A stretch of DNA of 58,428 bases from Flavobacteriaceae bacterium (GTDB lineage: Bacteria > Bacteroidota > Bacteroidia > Flavobacteriales > Flavobacteriaceae), in contig JABAZL010000109.1 of NCBI GenBank assembly GCA_018608425.1, forward strand, positions 1-58,428, given 5' to 3'. The position numbers were made by a program, and so were the translations under genes. The stretch's first letter is position 1. The number at the start of each line of letters is the position of its first letter. Of this stretch, positions 36,473-52,070 are shown in pieces. Under the pieces are notes generated by a model, which saw only the letters and a list, made by a program, of their open reading frames with translations, searched no databases and had not been told where the DNA came from.

Positions 36473-37444
36473 TTGAAAAAGAAACCACAAACTAAATTCA
36501 GCCTCTTTTTTAAGGGTATGGCAATGGGGATTGCCGATGTCATCCCCGGTGTTTCTGGAGGTACTATTGCATTAATTGCGGGGATATATGAAGAGTTAAT
36601 CAATTCGATAGACCAGATTAGTTTTAGATCATTACTTGTCCTTAAAAAAGAAGGATTTTCTTCTTTTTGGGCAACAATAAACGGGCGTTTTTTACTCCCT
36701 TTAGTGTTGGGGGTGGGAACAAGCATTATTCTTTTCTCAGGAGTTGTTCATTATTTATTACAGGAGCATCCTATCCCAGTATGGGCTTTCTTTTTTGGGC
36801 TTATTTGTTGTAGTATCCTGCTACTTTTAAAACAAAACCAACCCAAATCGATACCCTCAATACTCTTTTTGACTTTCGGTTTTCTTGTAGCTTACAGCAT
36901 AACGCAACTCACTCCGAATGGTGGAGAAATTAGTCTAGGCTATCTCTTCTTCTGTTCGATGATTGCAATCATTGCCATGATCCTCCCCGGCATTTCGGGT
37001 TCGTTCATATACATCCTTCTAGGGGCTTATGAAGTGGTATTGCATACTTCTAAGAATAGTATTCTTGCATTAGTCAATTTTGAATGGGATAATTTTGTAC
37101 AAATCTATTCTAGACTCCTTGTCATTGGATTGGGTATTGTAATTGGATTAAAATCCTTTTCAAGAATACTAAAATGGTTGTTTACGAATAAAAAACAAAC
37201 AACCTTGATGGTTTTAGTAGGTTTTCTGATTGGAGCTTTACCCAAAATATGGCCTTGGCAAAAAGCAATTGCGTGGGAGGTAATTTCTGAAAGTAAAAAA
37301 GTTGCAATCAAAACAAAATATACTGCACCTTGGAATTTTGAAGGAGACCCTCAACTTCTTATTGCAATCGCCATGATGCTTTTTGGATTTCTTTTTCTAT
37401 ATTTCCTTGAACGAAATTCGAACACAAAAAGCAATGCAGCCTAA
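36473..37444 (+). CDS. DUF368 (PopT-type undecaprenyl-phosphate translocase-like) membrane protein
   Basis: FKGMAMGIADVIPGVSGGTIALIAGIYEELI and MILPGISGSFIYILLGAYE; TTG start. Confidence 0.9.
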   Translation: MKKKPQTKFSLFFKGMAMGIADVIPGVSGGTIALIAGIYEELINSIDQISFRSLLVLKKEGFSSFWATINGRFLLPLVLGVGTSIILFSGVVHYLLQEHPIPVWAFFFGLICCSILLLLKQNQPKSIPSILFLTFGFLVAYSITQLTPNGGEISLGYLFFCSMIAIIAMILPGISGSFIYILLGAYEVVLHTSKNSILALVNFEWDNFVQIYSRLLVIGLGIVIGLKSFSRILKWLFTNKKQTTLMVLVGFLIGALPKIWPWQKAIAWEVISESKKVAIKTKYTAPWNFEGDPQLLIAIAMMLFGFLFLYFLERNSNTKSNAA

Positions 37445-38414
37445 AAAAACTCAAAGACAAAAACTTGTATTGATTTGCAAAGGAATTGCCATGGGAGTAG
37501 CCAATAAAATCCCCGGCGTATCTGGAGGTATTGTTGCTTTAGCTGCTGGATTTTATGAAGAACTCATTTACTCTTTTTCAAGATTCAATAAAACTGCATT
37601 AACATTATTATTTAAGAGAGAGTTTAAAGCTTTTTACACCCACATAAACGGGTCATTTTTAAGTCTACTATTCACCGGAGTTGTCATTAGTTTCTTCAGT
37701 GCCTCTTTAATTTTAGATCAGTTCATTCAATATTATCCTCGTCAAGTTTGGGGCTTATTTTTTGGTATGATACTAGCCTCTGTTTTTTTTATTTGGATCA
37801 AAGCAAAACGGTATACTTACAAAGAATATATTGTAACTATTCTAGGGCTTGCATCTGGTCTACTCGTCACCTTCTTAACCCCTGGGCAAGAAAACGACAA
37901 TCTTATATTTGTATTCATTTGCGGAATGATCAGCATCTCTGGGATGATCTTACCCGGGCTTTCGGGATCTTTCTTACTACTCGTGTTGGGAAATTACACC
38001 CTCTTACTAATCGATTCAGTCAATGCCTTGTATTTTACTTTAGTCGATCTCGTTTCTTTTGACTTAAGTTTTTTAGAAGATCCTGAACGACTCAATCTTT
38101 TGGGAGTAATGCTCGCATTCACATTAGGTTCTATTAGCGGATTGCTTGTTCTGTCTAAAGCATTGCGATTGTTTTTACAACACTACCCTAAGAAAATAAT
38201 TGCCTTGTTAATTGGTTTTATTTTAGGCTCGCTAAATGCAATTTGGCCATGGAAAAGAGCTGTTTATAATCCTGTTAAAGGCAAGCAAATCGATTCTTAT
38301 GAATTATTTTGGCCAAAACTTACTGAATTGGAAAACATCTACGTGATCCTTTTCATACTTTTGGGTTTTGGAATTGTTACCCTATTAGAAACCTATGGAA
38401 AAAAAAGTGCATAA
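37434..38414 (+). CDS. DUF368 membrane protein, second tandem paralogue
   Basis: CKGIAMGVANKIPGVSGGIVALAAGFYEELI and MILPGLSGSFLLLVLGNY. Confidence 0.9.
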   Translation: MQPKKTQRQKLVLICKGIAMGVANKIPGVSGGIVALAAGFYEELIYSFSRFNKTALTLLFKREFKAFYTHINGSFLSLLFTGVVISFFSASLILDQFIQYYPRQVWGLFFGMILASVFFIWIKAKRYTYKEYIVTILGLASGLLVTFLTPGQENDNLIFVFICGMISISGMILPGLSGSFLLLVLGNYTLLLIDSVNALYFTLVDLVSFDLSFLEDPERLNLLGVMLAFTLGSISGLLVLSKALRLFLQHYPKKIIALLIGFILGSLNAIWPWKRAVYNPVKGKQIDSYELFWPKLTELENIYVILFILLGFGIVTLLETYGKKSA

Positions 38415-47829: not shown

Positions 47830-48897
47830 TTAGGATTTCATTAGATTGGTTAAATTCATGTTTTTATAATTTCTGAGAACAAAGGAAAACGAAGCATGCA
47901 TGACTTCACCCATTCTGGTGCATGTCTGAAAAGCATCATCTTTAGTGAATTTATAAAGTTCTTTTGAGAGGTTTTCAATATTTTCAGGCTTAGAAACCCG
48001 ATCCACATTCATTATTTTCATGAGTTTATTCAAACGTTTACCAGCACTTAAAATTCGTTTTGCCAAAATCGATCGCTCTTCAATTTTGTATTGAATAATC
48101 GAATCTGCAGAAAGTTTGTCTTTCACAACAGAAATCATAGGATAGTTTTCTTTAAAAAACTGTGGACGATAGACCATCAATTTCCCTTCGAAGCTTTGTT
48201 GATCAAAATCAATTGCTCGGATTTGATAGATAACTTTATCAAAATCATGGGTTGGAATTACCACATAATTATAGGCTCGCATATCGCCCAACAGGCGAAT
48301 CATTGAACGCTCATTGAACTTAACATACTCTTTAGCAATCTGTGCTTGCTCAGCTGGAGTACAATCATCTAAATATTTTTCGATAAACACATCACCCGGG
48401 ATGCCTGCGATATGCTCTTCAATAAGGGTTGAACCGTTGACTAAAAAGTTAAGGTTGTGCGGAGAAAGCATGTGTTCAAATTCTAATCCATAAACCCGAG
48501 AAGCATCCGTTTTCTTAACGTAAAAATAGGTGAAGTTATCGTTCAAAATGTTACGCACCTTAACCCGAAAGGGCTTTGAATTTCCAAATGTACAATAGTC
48601 TATTGCGTCGATGTTGAGAAAAGCCATGGTTGATTCATTTCCATCAGAATGTAATAAGGTATAAACTTTTTTGAGATTAAAATCAATTTCCTCACGTTCG
48701 CTATCTGAATAATATACTCGTACCCAGAGCGTATCGTGATCATTTTCATCATATACCACTACAGAGCCAGAAAACCGAAGAAGGTCTTCATAATAAATTG
48801 GGGTATAGACCCAACGACTGTGATGCTTTAGATATTTCTTCAGCTCTTCTATAACAGGGTAAAATGGCTTTTTCTTAGAAATCAACTTTTCTTCCAT
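47830..48897 (-). CDS. Hypothetical protein, possible divergent protein-kinase-like (PKL/APH-type) fold
   Basis: Ordered motifs FYVKK, LEFEH, TLIEEHIAG, GDMRAYNYVV, RAIDFDQ. Confidence 0.6.
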   Translation of the reverse strand: MEEKLISKKKPFYPVIEELKKYLKHHSRWVYTPIYYEDLLRFSGSVVVYDENDHDTLWVRVYYSDSEREEIDFNLKKVYTLLHSDGNESTMAFLNIDAIDYCTFGNSKPFRVKVRNILNDNFTYFYVKKTDASRVYGLEFEHMLSPHNLNFLVNGSTLIEEHIAGIPGDVFIEKYLDDCTPAEQAQIAKEYVKFNERSMIRLLGDMRAYNYVVIPTHDFDKVIYQIRAIDFDQQSFEGKLMVYRPQFFKENYPMISVVKDKLSADSIIQYKIEERSILAKRILSAGKRLNKLMKIMNVDRVSKPENIENLSKELYKFTKDDAFQTCTRMGEVMHASFSFVLRNYKNMNLTNLMKS

Positions 48898-49017
48898 GGG
48901 CGTGCTTTTCTCAAAGGTACTAACTTTATTTCATTGAACTTTTTATTAAAATGAAGTGCAGAAGCTAGTATCACATTCGTTCAAATTGCTTAAATTTAAA
49001 GCCTTATAAAACAAACA

Positions 49018-51006
49018 ATGGCTTTTAAATTAGTTTCGGAATTCTCACCTACTGGCGATCAACCAACAGCGATCAAACAATTGGTCGACGGATTTTCGAA
49101 GACCGAAAAACACATGACTCTGCAAGGAGTTACGGGCTCTGGGAAAACATTTACTGTAGCCAATGTAGTTCAAGAACTGGATCGCCCCACTCTTGTACTG
49201 GCACACAATAAAACCCTTGCGGCTCAGCTGTACTCTGAGTTCAAATTGTTCTTTCCAGAAAATGCAGTGGAATATTTTGTTTCCTATTATGACTACTACC
49301 AACCTGAGGCCTATATACCCGTCACAGGGACTTATATTGAAAAAGACCTATCGATTAACGAAGAGATAGAAAAACTACGCCTAAGCACAACCTCTTCCCT
49401 CCTATCTGGAAGAAGAGATGTAATTGTTGTAGCGTCTGTATCCTGTTTATACGGGATTGGAAATCCTGCTGAGTTTCAAAAAAATGTCGTTTCCATAAAG
49501 CGAGATCAAGTCATCTCGAGAACCAAGTTCTTACATCAATTGGTTCAGAGTTTATACTCCCGAACCATGGCTGATTTTCAACATGGAAACTTCAGAGTTA
49601 AAGGCGATGTAGTCGATGTATATCCGAGTTATGCCGATACTGCATTTAGAATTCACTTTTTCGGGGATGAGATTGAAGAGATTGAAGCCTTTGATCCGAT
49701 CACTAACGAACGGATTGAAAAATTTGATCAACTGAATATCTACCCAGCCAATATGTTTGTGACCTCCCCAGATGTTTTACAAAATGCCATTCACGCTATT
49801 CAAGATGACTTAGTAAAACAACTTGATTTTTTCAGAGAAGTTGGAAAACACTTAGAGGCTAAACGACTTGAAGAACGCACTAATTTTGACTTGGAAATGA
49901 TTCGTGAATTGGGTTACTGTTCTGGAATTGAAAACTATTCACGTTATTTAGACGGTAGAAATCCAGGCACACGACCCTTCTGTTTATTGGATTACTTTCC
50001 TGACGATTTTTTAATGGTGATTGATGAAAGCCACGTTACGGTTTCCCAAGTACATGCGATGTATGGAGGGGATCGAAGTAGAAAAGAAAACCTAGTTGAA
50101 TACGGTTTCAGACTCCCTGCCGCAATGGACAACCGACCCTTAAAATTTGAAGAGTTTGAAAGTTTACAAAACCAAGTTCTTTTTGTCAGCGCAACTCCTG
50201 CCGACTACGAATTGGAGAAAACTGAGGGTGTTTTTGTTGAACAAATTATTCGTCCAACGGGACTACTTGATCCTATAATTGAGGTTCGTCCAAGTGAGAA
50301 TCAGATTGATGATTTGATTGAAGAAATTCAAAAAAGGAACGAAAAAGATGAGCGAACCTTAGTTACTACTCTTACAAAACGAATGGCAGAAGAACTTACC
50401 AAATACATGAGTCGCATACAAATTCGTTGCCGCTATATTCACAGTGATGTAGATACTCTGGAACGTGTAGAGATTATGCAAGATTTGAGGAAAGGTGTCT
50501 TCGATGTTCTTATCGGAGTAAACCTCTTGAGAGAGGGCTTGGATTTACCTGAAGTTTCTTTGGTAGCAATTTTAGATGCTGATAAGGAAGGTTTTTTACG
50601 TTCCAACCGATCGCTTACCCAAACTGTAGGAAGAGCTGCAAGAAACGTAAATGGGTTGGCCATTTTTTATGCCGATAGGATTACGAAAAGCATGCAGTTT
50701 ACGATGGATCAGACCACTTATCGTAGACAAAAACAAATGGAATATAATACGCTAAATAATCAAGTTCCGACCGCTTTGAATAAATCTTTGGACAGTGCGC
50801 TTTCAAAAAACTCTGTTGCCACCTATGCCTCCGAAAAAGAATCCAAGAAAGCAGCGGAAGAGGCTACACGATATTTGACTAAACCACAAATCGAACAAAA
50901 GGTTCGGGACACGAGAAAGTTGATGGAAATTGCTGCAAAGGATTTAAACTTTTTAGAAGCTGCCAGTTTACGTGATCAAATTAAAGTCCTCAAAGAGCAA
51001 TTGTAG
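49018..51006 (+). CDS. uvrB: Excinuclease ABC subunit UvrB
   Basis: GVTGSGKTFTVANV, YYDYYQPEAYIP, ESHVTVSQVHAMYGGDRSRKENLVEYGFRLP, QTVGRAARN. Confidence 0.98.
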   Translation: MAFKLVSEFSPTGDQPTAIKQLVDGFSKTEKHMTLQGVTGSGKTFTVANVVQELDRPTLVLAHNKTLAAQLYSEFKLFFPENAVEYFVSYYDYYQPEAYIPVTGTYIEKDLSINEEIEKLRLSTTSSLLSGRRDVIVVASVSCLYGIGNPAEFQKNVVSIKRDQVISRTKFLHQLVQSLYSRTMADFQHGNFRVKGDVVDVYPSYADTAFRIHFFGDEIEEIEAFDPITNERIEKFDQLNIYPANMFVTSPDVLQNAIHAIQDDLVKQLDFFREVGKHLEAKRLEERTNFDLEMIRELGYCSGIENYSRYLDGRNPGTRPFCLLDYFPDDFLMVIDESHVTVSQVHAMYGGDRSRKENLVEYGFRLPAAMDNRPLKFEEFESLQNQVLFVSATPADYELEKTEGVFVEQIIRPTGLLDPIIEVRPSENQIDDLIEEIQKRNEKDERTLVTTLTKRMAEELTKYMSRIQIRCRYIHSDVDTLERVEIMQDLRKGVFDVLIGVNLLREGLDLPEVSLVAILDADKEGFLRSNRSLTQTVGRAARNVNGLAIFYADRITKSMQFTMDQTTYRRQKQMEYNTLNNQVPTALNKSLDSALSKNSVATYASEKESKKAAEEATRYLTKPQIEQKVRDTRKLMEIAAKDLNFLEAASLRDQIKVLKEQL

Positions 51007-51096: not shown

Positions 51097-52070
51097 ATGA
51101 AAAACACAACTACCACATTACCAACTATTCTTTTTTTCTATTCGCAAGTATCACGCTAGTTGCACAACAACGCATTGAACAAAGTGAAGAACTTGGGCAA
51201 GTGCACTGGTACCGCGATTATGACAAAGCATTAGTAGTTGCCGCTAAAGAAGATAAAGATGTTTTGCTTCTTTTTCAAGAAGTTCCAGGCTGTTCTACGT
51301 GCCGGAATTATGGACATAATGTTTTGAGTCACCCTTTAATGGTGGAGGCAATTGAATCGCTTTTTGTACCGCTAGCGATTTTCAATAATAAAGAAGGAAA
51401 AGACAAAAAGATTTTAGATCAATACGGAGAGCCCAGTTGGAATAATCCTGTTGTACGAATTGTAGATGAACAGGGAAAAGATGTGGTTAAAAGAATCGGA
51501 AATGACTATTCAGCTTTAACTCTATGCAAGAGAATGATAGCGGCTTTACTCAAAAACAAAAAAGAAGTACCTGAATATTTAACTTTATTAAAACAGGAAC
51601 TCGACCGATTGGTTTCCTCAAACATCAAAGAAAAGACCTTTAAGATGTACTGCTTTTGGAGTGGGGAAAAAGCCTTGGGAGCCTTGGATGGGGTTCTCAG
51701 TACCCAAGCCGGTTTTAGTAATCACTCCGAAGTTGTTAGGGTGCAATATGACAGTCGATTGATTCAAGAAGAGCAACTTACGGCTTATGCCAAAAAAAAT
51801 GCCTGTAGTCCTCTTAAAAGCGCTCCATACAAGTTAGCATCTAACGACCTACATTACTACTTACAACATACCGATTATAAATACCTTCCCCTCACCGAAG
51901 TTCAAAAGACTAAGATCAACAGTGCATTAGGAAACCAAAAGGCAACGCATCTGTTTTTGAGTCCTCGACAAAAAGAACGATTAACACAAATTCAAAAAGG
52001 AGCATTTAAAAAAGAAAATGTTGTTCATACTGAATTTACAGCCGCATGGAATCAGGGGCTTGAAGAATAA
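51097..52070 (+). CDS. Secreted thioredoxin-fold + MsrA-like fusion protein; apparent 1-nt frameshift in the signal peptide at the T7 run 51131-51137
   Basis: ATG 51097 gives MKNTTTTLPTILFF..., out of frame with the body ORF (track GTG 51201) unless one T is added; then FLFASITLVAQQRIEQ... reads through to VPGCSTC and CFWSGEKALG. Confidence 0.7.

Follow-up and report, generated by a model that had tools for sequence, protein, structure and literature searches.

Within the protein-kinase-like (PKL) superfamily, a catalytic loop of the form D-x-[H/R]-x-x-N, which is also that of the protein described here, is the pattern of APH (HGDxHxxN), HipA (DxHxKN) and the PI3-kinases (DRHxxN). Some atypical PKL proteins have been repurposed, SelO for AMP transfer and SidJ for glutamylation, and SelO is without the usual catalytic-base Asp. 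In a 2007 survey of 20 PKL families, PI3K was treated as eukaryote-specific (PMC1821047). The Lani_1194/NoeA-type kinase-methyltransferases, which are likewise atypical, are reported to be widespread in bacteria and to occur in Flavobacteriales (PMC9758233).

We analysed a gene located in a stretch of Flavobacteriaceae DNA of 58,428 nucleotides (hereafter the window), whose product had been proposed in an initial annotation, made from the DNA letters alone, to be an atypical kinase or a pseudokinase. On the basis of its conserved residues and predicted structure, we propose with a probability of roughly 0.83 that this protein is an active, cytosolic, ATP-dependent phosphotransferase of the PKL fold, belonging to a PKL family that is absent from the libraries searched.

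The gene, its neighbours and its distribution

The ORF of 355 codons was found where it had been annotated, on the minus strand (Table 1). Comparison with two close orthologues (92–97% protein identity) gave dN/dS values of ~0.03–0.04, synonymous differences far exceeding non-synonymous ones. In addition, 55 of the 66 orthologues carry, in the 60 nt preceding the start codon, the motif TAnnTTTG, which is the core promoter element of Flavobacterium-type bacteria; in 54 of these it lies 16–23 nt from the start, whereas 5% of shuffled upstream regions contain it. The low dN/dS (~0.03) and this conserved promoter-like motif indicate that the ORF is a real gene under strong purifying selection and, given the distance of 16–23 nt between motif and start, it is probably expressed alone with a very short leader.

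The arrangement of the adjacent genes was also as annotated initially: uvrB starts at 49018 and is divergent from the kinase-like gene, whereas a pRiA4b ORF-3-like gene (PF07929; 47335–47826, + strand) is convergent with it, the stops being 3 nt apart. In the Flavobacteriaceae this PF07929 gene almost always adjoins the kinase-like gene, and the stable neighbours (uvrB, an ABC transporter, ctaA and the pRiA4b-like gene) are stable within this family alone. Outside the Flavobacteriaceae no constant partner gene of at least 100 aa was found, a cut-off below which HipB-like antitoxins can fall. As the neighbours are kept in one family and elsewhere there is no constant partner, the operon context gives no clue to the substrate, and no neighbour, fusion or operon pointing to it was found. 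In three marine Bacteroidota contigs (L095, L103 and L110) the gene lies beside a different conserved gene set and not beside uvrB/ctaA, which indicates that it has moved; one gene of that set encodes what is, by our own reading of the sequence, presumably a sorbosone-dehydrogenase-like protein. Elsewhere in the window, two overlapping tandem ORFs (36473–37444 and 37383–38414, + strand), both PF04018 (VCA0040-like, undecaprenyl phosphate translocase-like), are probably a tandem duplicate, and the ORF at 51201–52070 (+ strand) encodes a Thioredoxin_7 domain and, behind it, a segment that weakly matches positions 1–31 of peptide methionine sulfoxide reductase; the product may be a two-domain protein that has decayed or diverged.

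Members of the kinase-like family were found in 79 of the 296 genomes of a sample taken across the Bacteroidota, including 29 of the 30 sampled from the Flavobacteriaceae, the window's own family; 23 of the 79 positive genomes belong to other classes of the phylum, with ~40–45% identity, and 15 further genomes yielded weak or fragmentary matches only. A second sample, at class level, agreed with this distribution. The gene is a stand-alone one and usually single-copy, as it is in the window's genome, with an orthologue at locus L031 reaching 97% protein identity; judged by this identity, the window's genome is probably Candidatus Arcticimaribacter-like. Even marine genomes as small as 1.4–2.2 Mb retain it, although some genomes have lost it, with apparent remnants in two (G034 and G305). 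One genome (G149) has two copies, L177 and L178, which are 45% and 39% identical to the window's protein respectively and both carry the full catalytic set. All 80 loci kept from the contig scan for relatives bear Bacteroidota names. A mobile-element or phage origin was rejected, since searches of viral contigs and plasmids yielded no relatives. We also considered a link with type IX secretion or gliding, since nearly all genomes with the kinase-like gene have SprA; however, SprA occurs in 229/296 genomes and the kinase-like gene in 79/296, and a specific link is therefore not indicated.

Conserved residues and predicted structure

Searches of Pfam (using 37 diverse members), NCBIfam, PADLOC, PHROGs and PDB sequences gave chance-level matches only. 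PF00454, PF07804, PF01636 and PF08757 matched none of the 37 members, nor did PF00454 match at the locus itself, and a literature search found no description of the family, in keeping with the initial annotation, which had recognized no characterized family. Comparisons by hhalign with PI3K, HipA, CotH and APH alignments were not significant (P=0.068 for HipA, 0.086 for APH and 0.44 for CotH), the scores falling within the range of 15 unrelated neighbour families used as controls. The PI3K comparison is a weak test because its profile is small, consisting of six human sequences, of which the VPS34 letters alone were verified against a database. The best alignments to HipA, APH and PI3K nevertheless bring Asp and Asn into register with the Asp and Asn of the catalytic loop of the respective family; this register lends weak support to the kinase reading, short conserved loops being prone to such matches.

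Conservation was counted over 83 sequences, down to ~39% identity to the query, and in an alignment of 37 diverse rows (A2). The motif residues named in the initial annotation were all present at their positions, and the first of two outcomes that had been named beforehand as evidence against a kinase, namely orthologues in which D205, N210 and D230 are not conserved, was not what we observed: these three were kept, as were K128 and, in 82/83, E141. As that annotation was made without sight of any orthologue, their conservation is an independent confirmation of the residue set. In two places the set could be refined. The β3 lysine had been given as K128 or K129 and can be assigned to K128, because K129 varies (K/R/T/Q/N); and, although D230 does occupy the DFG position, the motif there reads D-F-D and its second Asp, D232, is likewise invariant. 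An alternative partner of K128 is E139, conserved in 81/83 with D as the sole change. In the candidate phosphate-binding loop, whose role we infer, C102, N106 and P109 are invariant and G105 is found in 81/83; position 207 of the catalytic loop is R in 62/83 and H in 21/83. DFD is followed by Q233 (83/83) and Q234 (82/83), and R111, I229, Y243, P245 and N251 are also invariant in the 83 sequences.

Table 1 Features of the kinase-like gene and its product (window coordinates; counts over 83 sequences unless stated)
Feature	Position	Strand	Residues	Observations
Kinase-like protein gene	47830..48897	-	1-355	ATG at 48897, stop ends at 47830; 355 aa; ORF, dN/dS, orthologues across Bacteroidota
Promoter-like TACCTTTG (TAnnTTTG)	48912..48919	-		Just upstream of start codon; motif conserved in orthologues
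N-terminal extension	48619..48897	-	1-93	K10, Y36, W58, Y79, L82 invariant in 37-row A2; partly helical (model)
Candidate phosphate-binding loop C-x-x-G-N-[ST]-x-P	48571..48594	-	102-109	Between β1 and β2
β3 lysine	48514..48516	-	K128	83/83; on strand 121-129
D131 to R134	48496..48507	-	131-134	D131 and R134 83/83; with K128, K-x-x-D-x-x-R
αC glutamate	48475..48477	-	E141	82/83, lone change to D; helix 132-144
Hinge region E-E-H-I	48409..48420	-	160-163	E160 and H162 83/83; after strand 157-161
Catalytic loop D-M-[R/H]-x-x-N	48268..48285	-	205-210	D205, M206, N210 83/83
Putative metal-binding D-F-D (DFG equivalent)	48202..48210	-	230-232	D230, F231, D232 83/83

Twelve K-E-DxxxxN-D combinations whose spacing is loosely that of a kinase occur in the sequence, and in two of these all residues are at least 98.5% conserved over the 83 sequences, namely 128/141/205/210/230 and its D232 variant. 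This level is reached by 4 of the 32 Lys, 4 of the 26 Glu, 5 of the 24 Asp and 5 of the 22 Asn residues of the query, and a blind pick of five conserved residues would thus succeed with a chance of ~1e-4 by simple multiplication.

The AlphaFold2 model of the full-length protein (81 sequences) reached a pLDDT of 80.5 and a pTM of 0.80, and a model of residues 88–355 alone (81.1 and 0.78 respectively) showed the same core. In the predicted N-lobe, β1 (94–101), β2 (110–116) and β3 (121–129, with K128) are followed by αC (132–144, with E141) and β4/β5; the chain then continues through a hinge near 160–163, within the segment STLIEEHIAG that had been called hinge-like, αD, αE (181–202), the catalytic loop (203–210) bearing D205 and N210, a β-hairpin (210–229) and DFD (230–232) into a helical C-lobe, residues 1–93 forming the partly helical extension. 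Both predictions have a bilobal PKL fold with the β3 Lys on its strand and the αC Glu on its helix, so that the second outcome named beforehand as evidence against a kinase, a model without such a fold, did not occur either, the active-site loops being modelled at moderate confidence (pLDDT ~60–66 in the blocks holding residues 101–110, 201–210 and 231–240).

Structure searches with the models bore out the two-lobed kinase fold, the PDB matches being essentially all kinase-fold proteins. Using Foldseek, the listed PDB matches were kinases or pseudokinases, with best E-values of 2.8e-4 (full length) and 5.7e-5 (core) at low TM-scores of 0.23–0.38, and several of the nearest were the TYK2 and JAK2 pseudokinase domains. 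With VIA-align, in which Z 7–8 is the usual level for models that have no clear match, the best 50 rows for the full model were all PI3K, PI4K or mTOR, from VPS34 at Z 12.4 (281 residues, 4.8 Å) down to Z 9.0, with an rmsd of ~5 Å. Helices outside the core supply part of this lead of VPS34, and for the core model CtkA of Helicobacter pylori ranked highest (Z 9.6, 203 residues), followed by PI3K (8.8), the SAGA complex (7.7, the matching subunit presumably being the PIKK Tra1), WaaP (7.1) and APH(2'') (7.1, 150 residues), and then by LanKC and ordinary kinases at Z 6–7; on this predicted core, CtkA and PI3K are tied. A BFVD search returned mostly viral kinases, PI3-kinases being among them. Judged from these models, the protein almost certainly has a kinase fold.

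Proposed activity and alternative readings

From the conservation and the modelled fold, we read the protein as representing a new PKL family with a conserved N-terminal extension of ~90 residues and DFD replacing DFG. In the mechanism that we envisage, ATP-Mg would bind between the lobes, its phosphates being held by K128, with E141 (or E139) as its partner, and by the C-x-x-G-N-[ST]-x-P loop; D205 would act as the catalytic base, and N210 and D230, possibly with the help of D232, would hold the metal ions. The γ-phosphate would then pass to a substrate read by the near-invariant C-lobe segment after DFD (Q233-Q234, Y243, P245 and N251) and by the N-terminal extension. As these putative substrate-side positions are as fixed across the phylum as the catalytic ones, we expect one dedicated, conserved substrate, whether protein, lipid or small molecule, rather than a broad range. 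Such a kinase would be near-core in the Flavobacteriaceae and is left without a name by automatic annotation, and identification of its substrate would reveal a phosphorylation step in a major marine and soil bacterial group.

The near-invariance of the catalytic set, combined with a model of the kinase fold, favours an active phosphotransferase over a pseudokinase or ATP-binding scaffold, in which the fold and nucleotide site would be kept without phosphate transfer and the conserved site would be regulatory. The exchange of the DFG glycine for Asp, the missing canonical HRD or HGD in the catalytic loop and the TYK2 and JAK2 domains among the nearest Foldseek matches would all fit a pseudokinase. 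However, true pseudokinases typically lose one or more catalytic residues, whereas here the set is whole in every sequence, including the second copy L178, save for one conservative E141D change; active PKL enzymes also vary the DFG glycine, an example being the IDFE motif of choline kinase. Since the whole catalytic set is kept, the pseudokinase half of the initial proposal loses weight and we consider it improbable, while the atypical-kinase half agrees with the predicted fold and the catalytic residues. A PKL fold put to different ATP chemistry, e.g. AMP transfer as in SelO or glutamylation as in SidJ, has known precedents, and three invariant residues here are unusual, namely the additional Asp of DFD, H162 and C102; but the catalytic Asp, which SelO is without, is invariant at its standard position, and this explanation appears to us less probable still.

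Closer to our own reading, and overlapping with it in all but branch and substrate class, is a diverged small-molecule kinase of the APH/CAK type lying beyond profile detection. The D-x-[H/R]-x-x-N loop resembles HGDLHxxN, the hhalign register falls on the APH catalytic loop, APH(2'') aligns with the core, and the fixed substrate-side residues would suit one metabolite, although the alignments to PI3K-class proteins and CtkA are longer and higher-scoring and neither PF01636 (0/37 members) nor hhalign gives a significant match; we regard such an assignment as possible but doubtful. The reading furthest from ours, that K, E, D and N stand in kinase order by chance within an unrelated fold, would accord with the absence of a significant kinase-profile match, but sits badly with two separate predictions of kinase-like topology in which all residues lie on the right elements and with listed fold matches that are essentially all PKL, and we give it very little credence.

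Comparison with described kinase families

The active PKL phosphotransferase proposed here can be set apart from several described families. The Lani_1194 proteins have Arg in place of the β3 Lys and a fused methyltransferase (PMC9758233). The kinase-like family keeps the β3 Lys and is without a methyltransferase domain, and Lani_1194 is for these reasons a different family. A member of the CotH kinases (PF08757) was found in the window's genome. CotH carries D-x-D in place of DFG, but the hhalign alignment between the two families covered 12 residues away from the active site. The core search places the APH (PF01636) and Kdo/WaaP kinases in one fold class with the kinase-like family, and the D-x4-N loop is common to them, but there is no profile match and the aligned length is shorter.

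Within the PKL superfamily, the predicted structure lies closest to PI3K and the HipA-like kinases (CtkA). CtkA, a HipA-like kinase (HipA_C, PF07804), ranks first among the structural matches to the core, and the hhalign register falls on the D-x-H-x-K-N loop of HipA; on the other hand, HipA_C matches 0/37 members, the hhalign comparison was not significant and no constant neighbour of at least 100 aa was found outside the Flavobacteriaceae. The PI3/PI4-kinases and PIKKs (PF00454; VPS34, PI3K-δ, PI4K-IIIβ and mTOR) give the best full-model structural alignments and share with the kinase-like family the G-D-x-[H/R]-x-x-N loop and the I-D-F motif. A further lead is the K-x-x-D-x-x-R segment after β3, common to both (K-H-G-D-D-L-R in VPS34). 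The kinase-like family differs in having DFD and not DFG, D-M-R/H and not D-R-H, and a length of only 355 aa, so that the PF00454 signatures D-R-H-x-x-N and DFG are absent and what is shared is the Asp, the Asn and, in 21/83, the His. A specific kinship with PI3K/PIKK is a tentative idea, and rather unlikely. Also rather unlikely is the wider proposal of a bacterial PI3/PI4-kinase/PIKK relative spread across the Bacteroidota, which would link the eukaryotic PI3-kinases with the bacterial HipA-like kinases and carry out a conserved phosphorylation, possibly of a lipid. The predicted structural closeness to both PI3-kinases and HipA bears on how the PI3K branch arose within the kinase superfamily.
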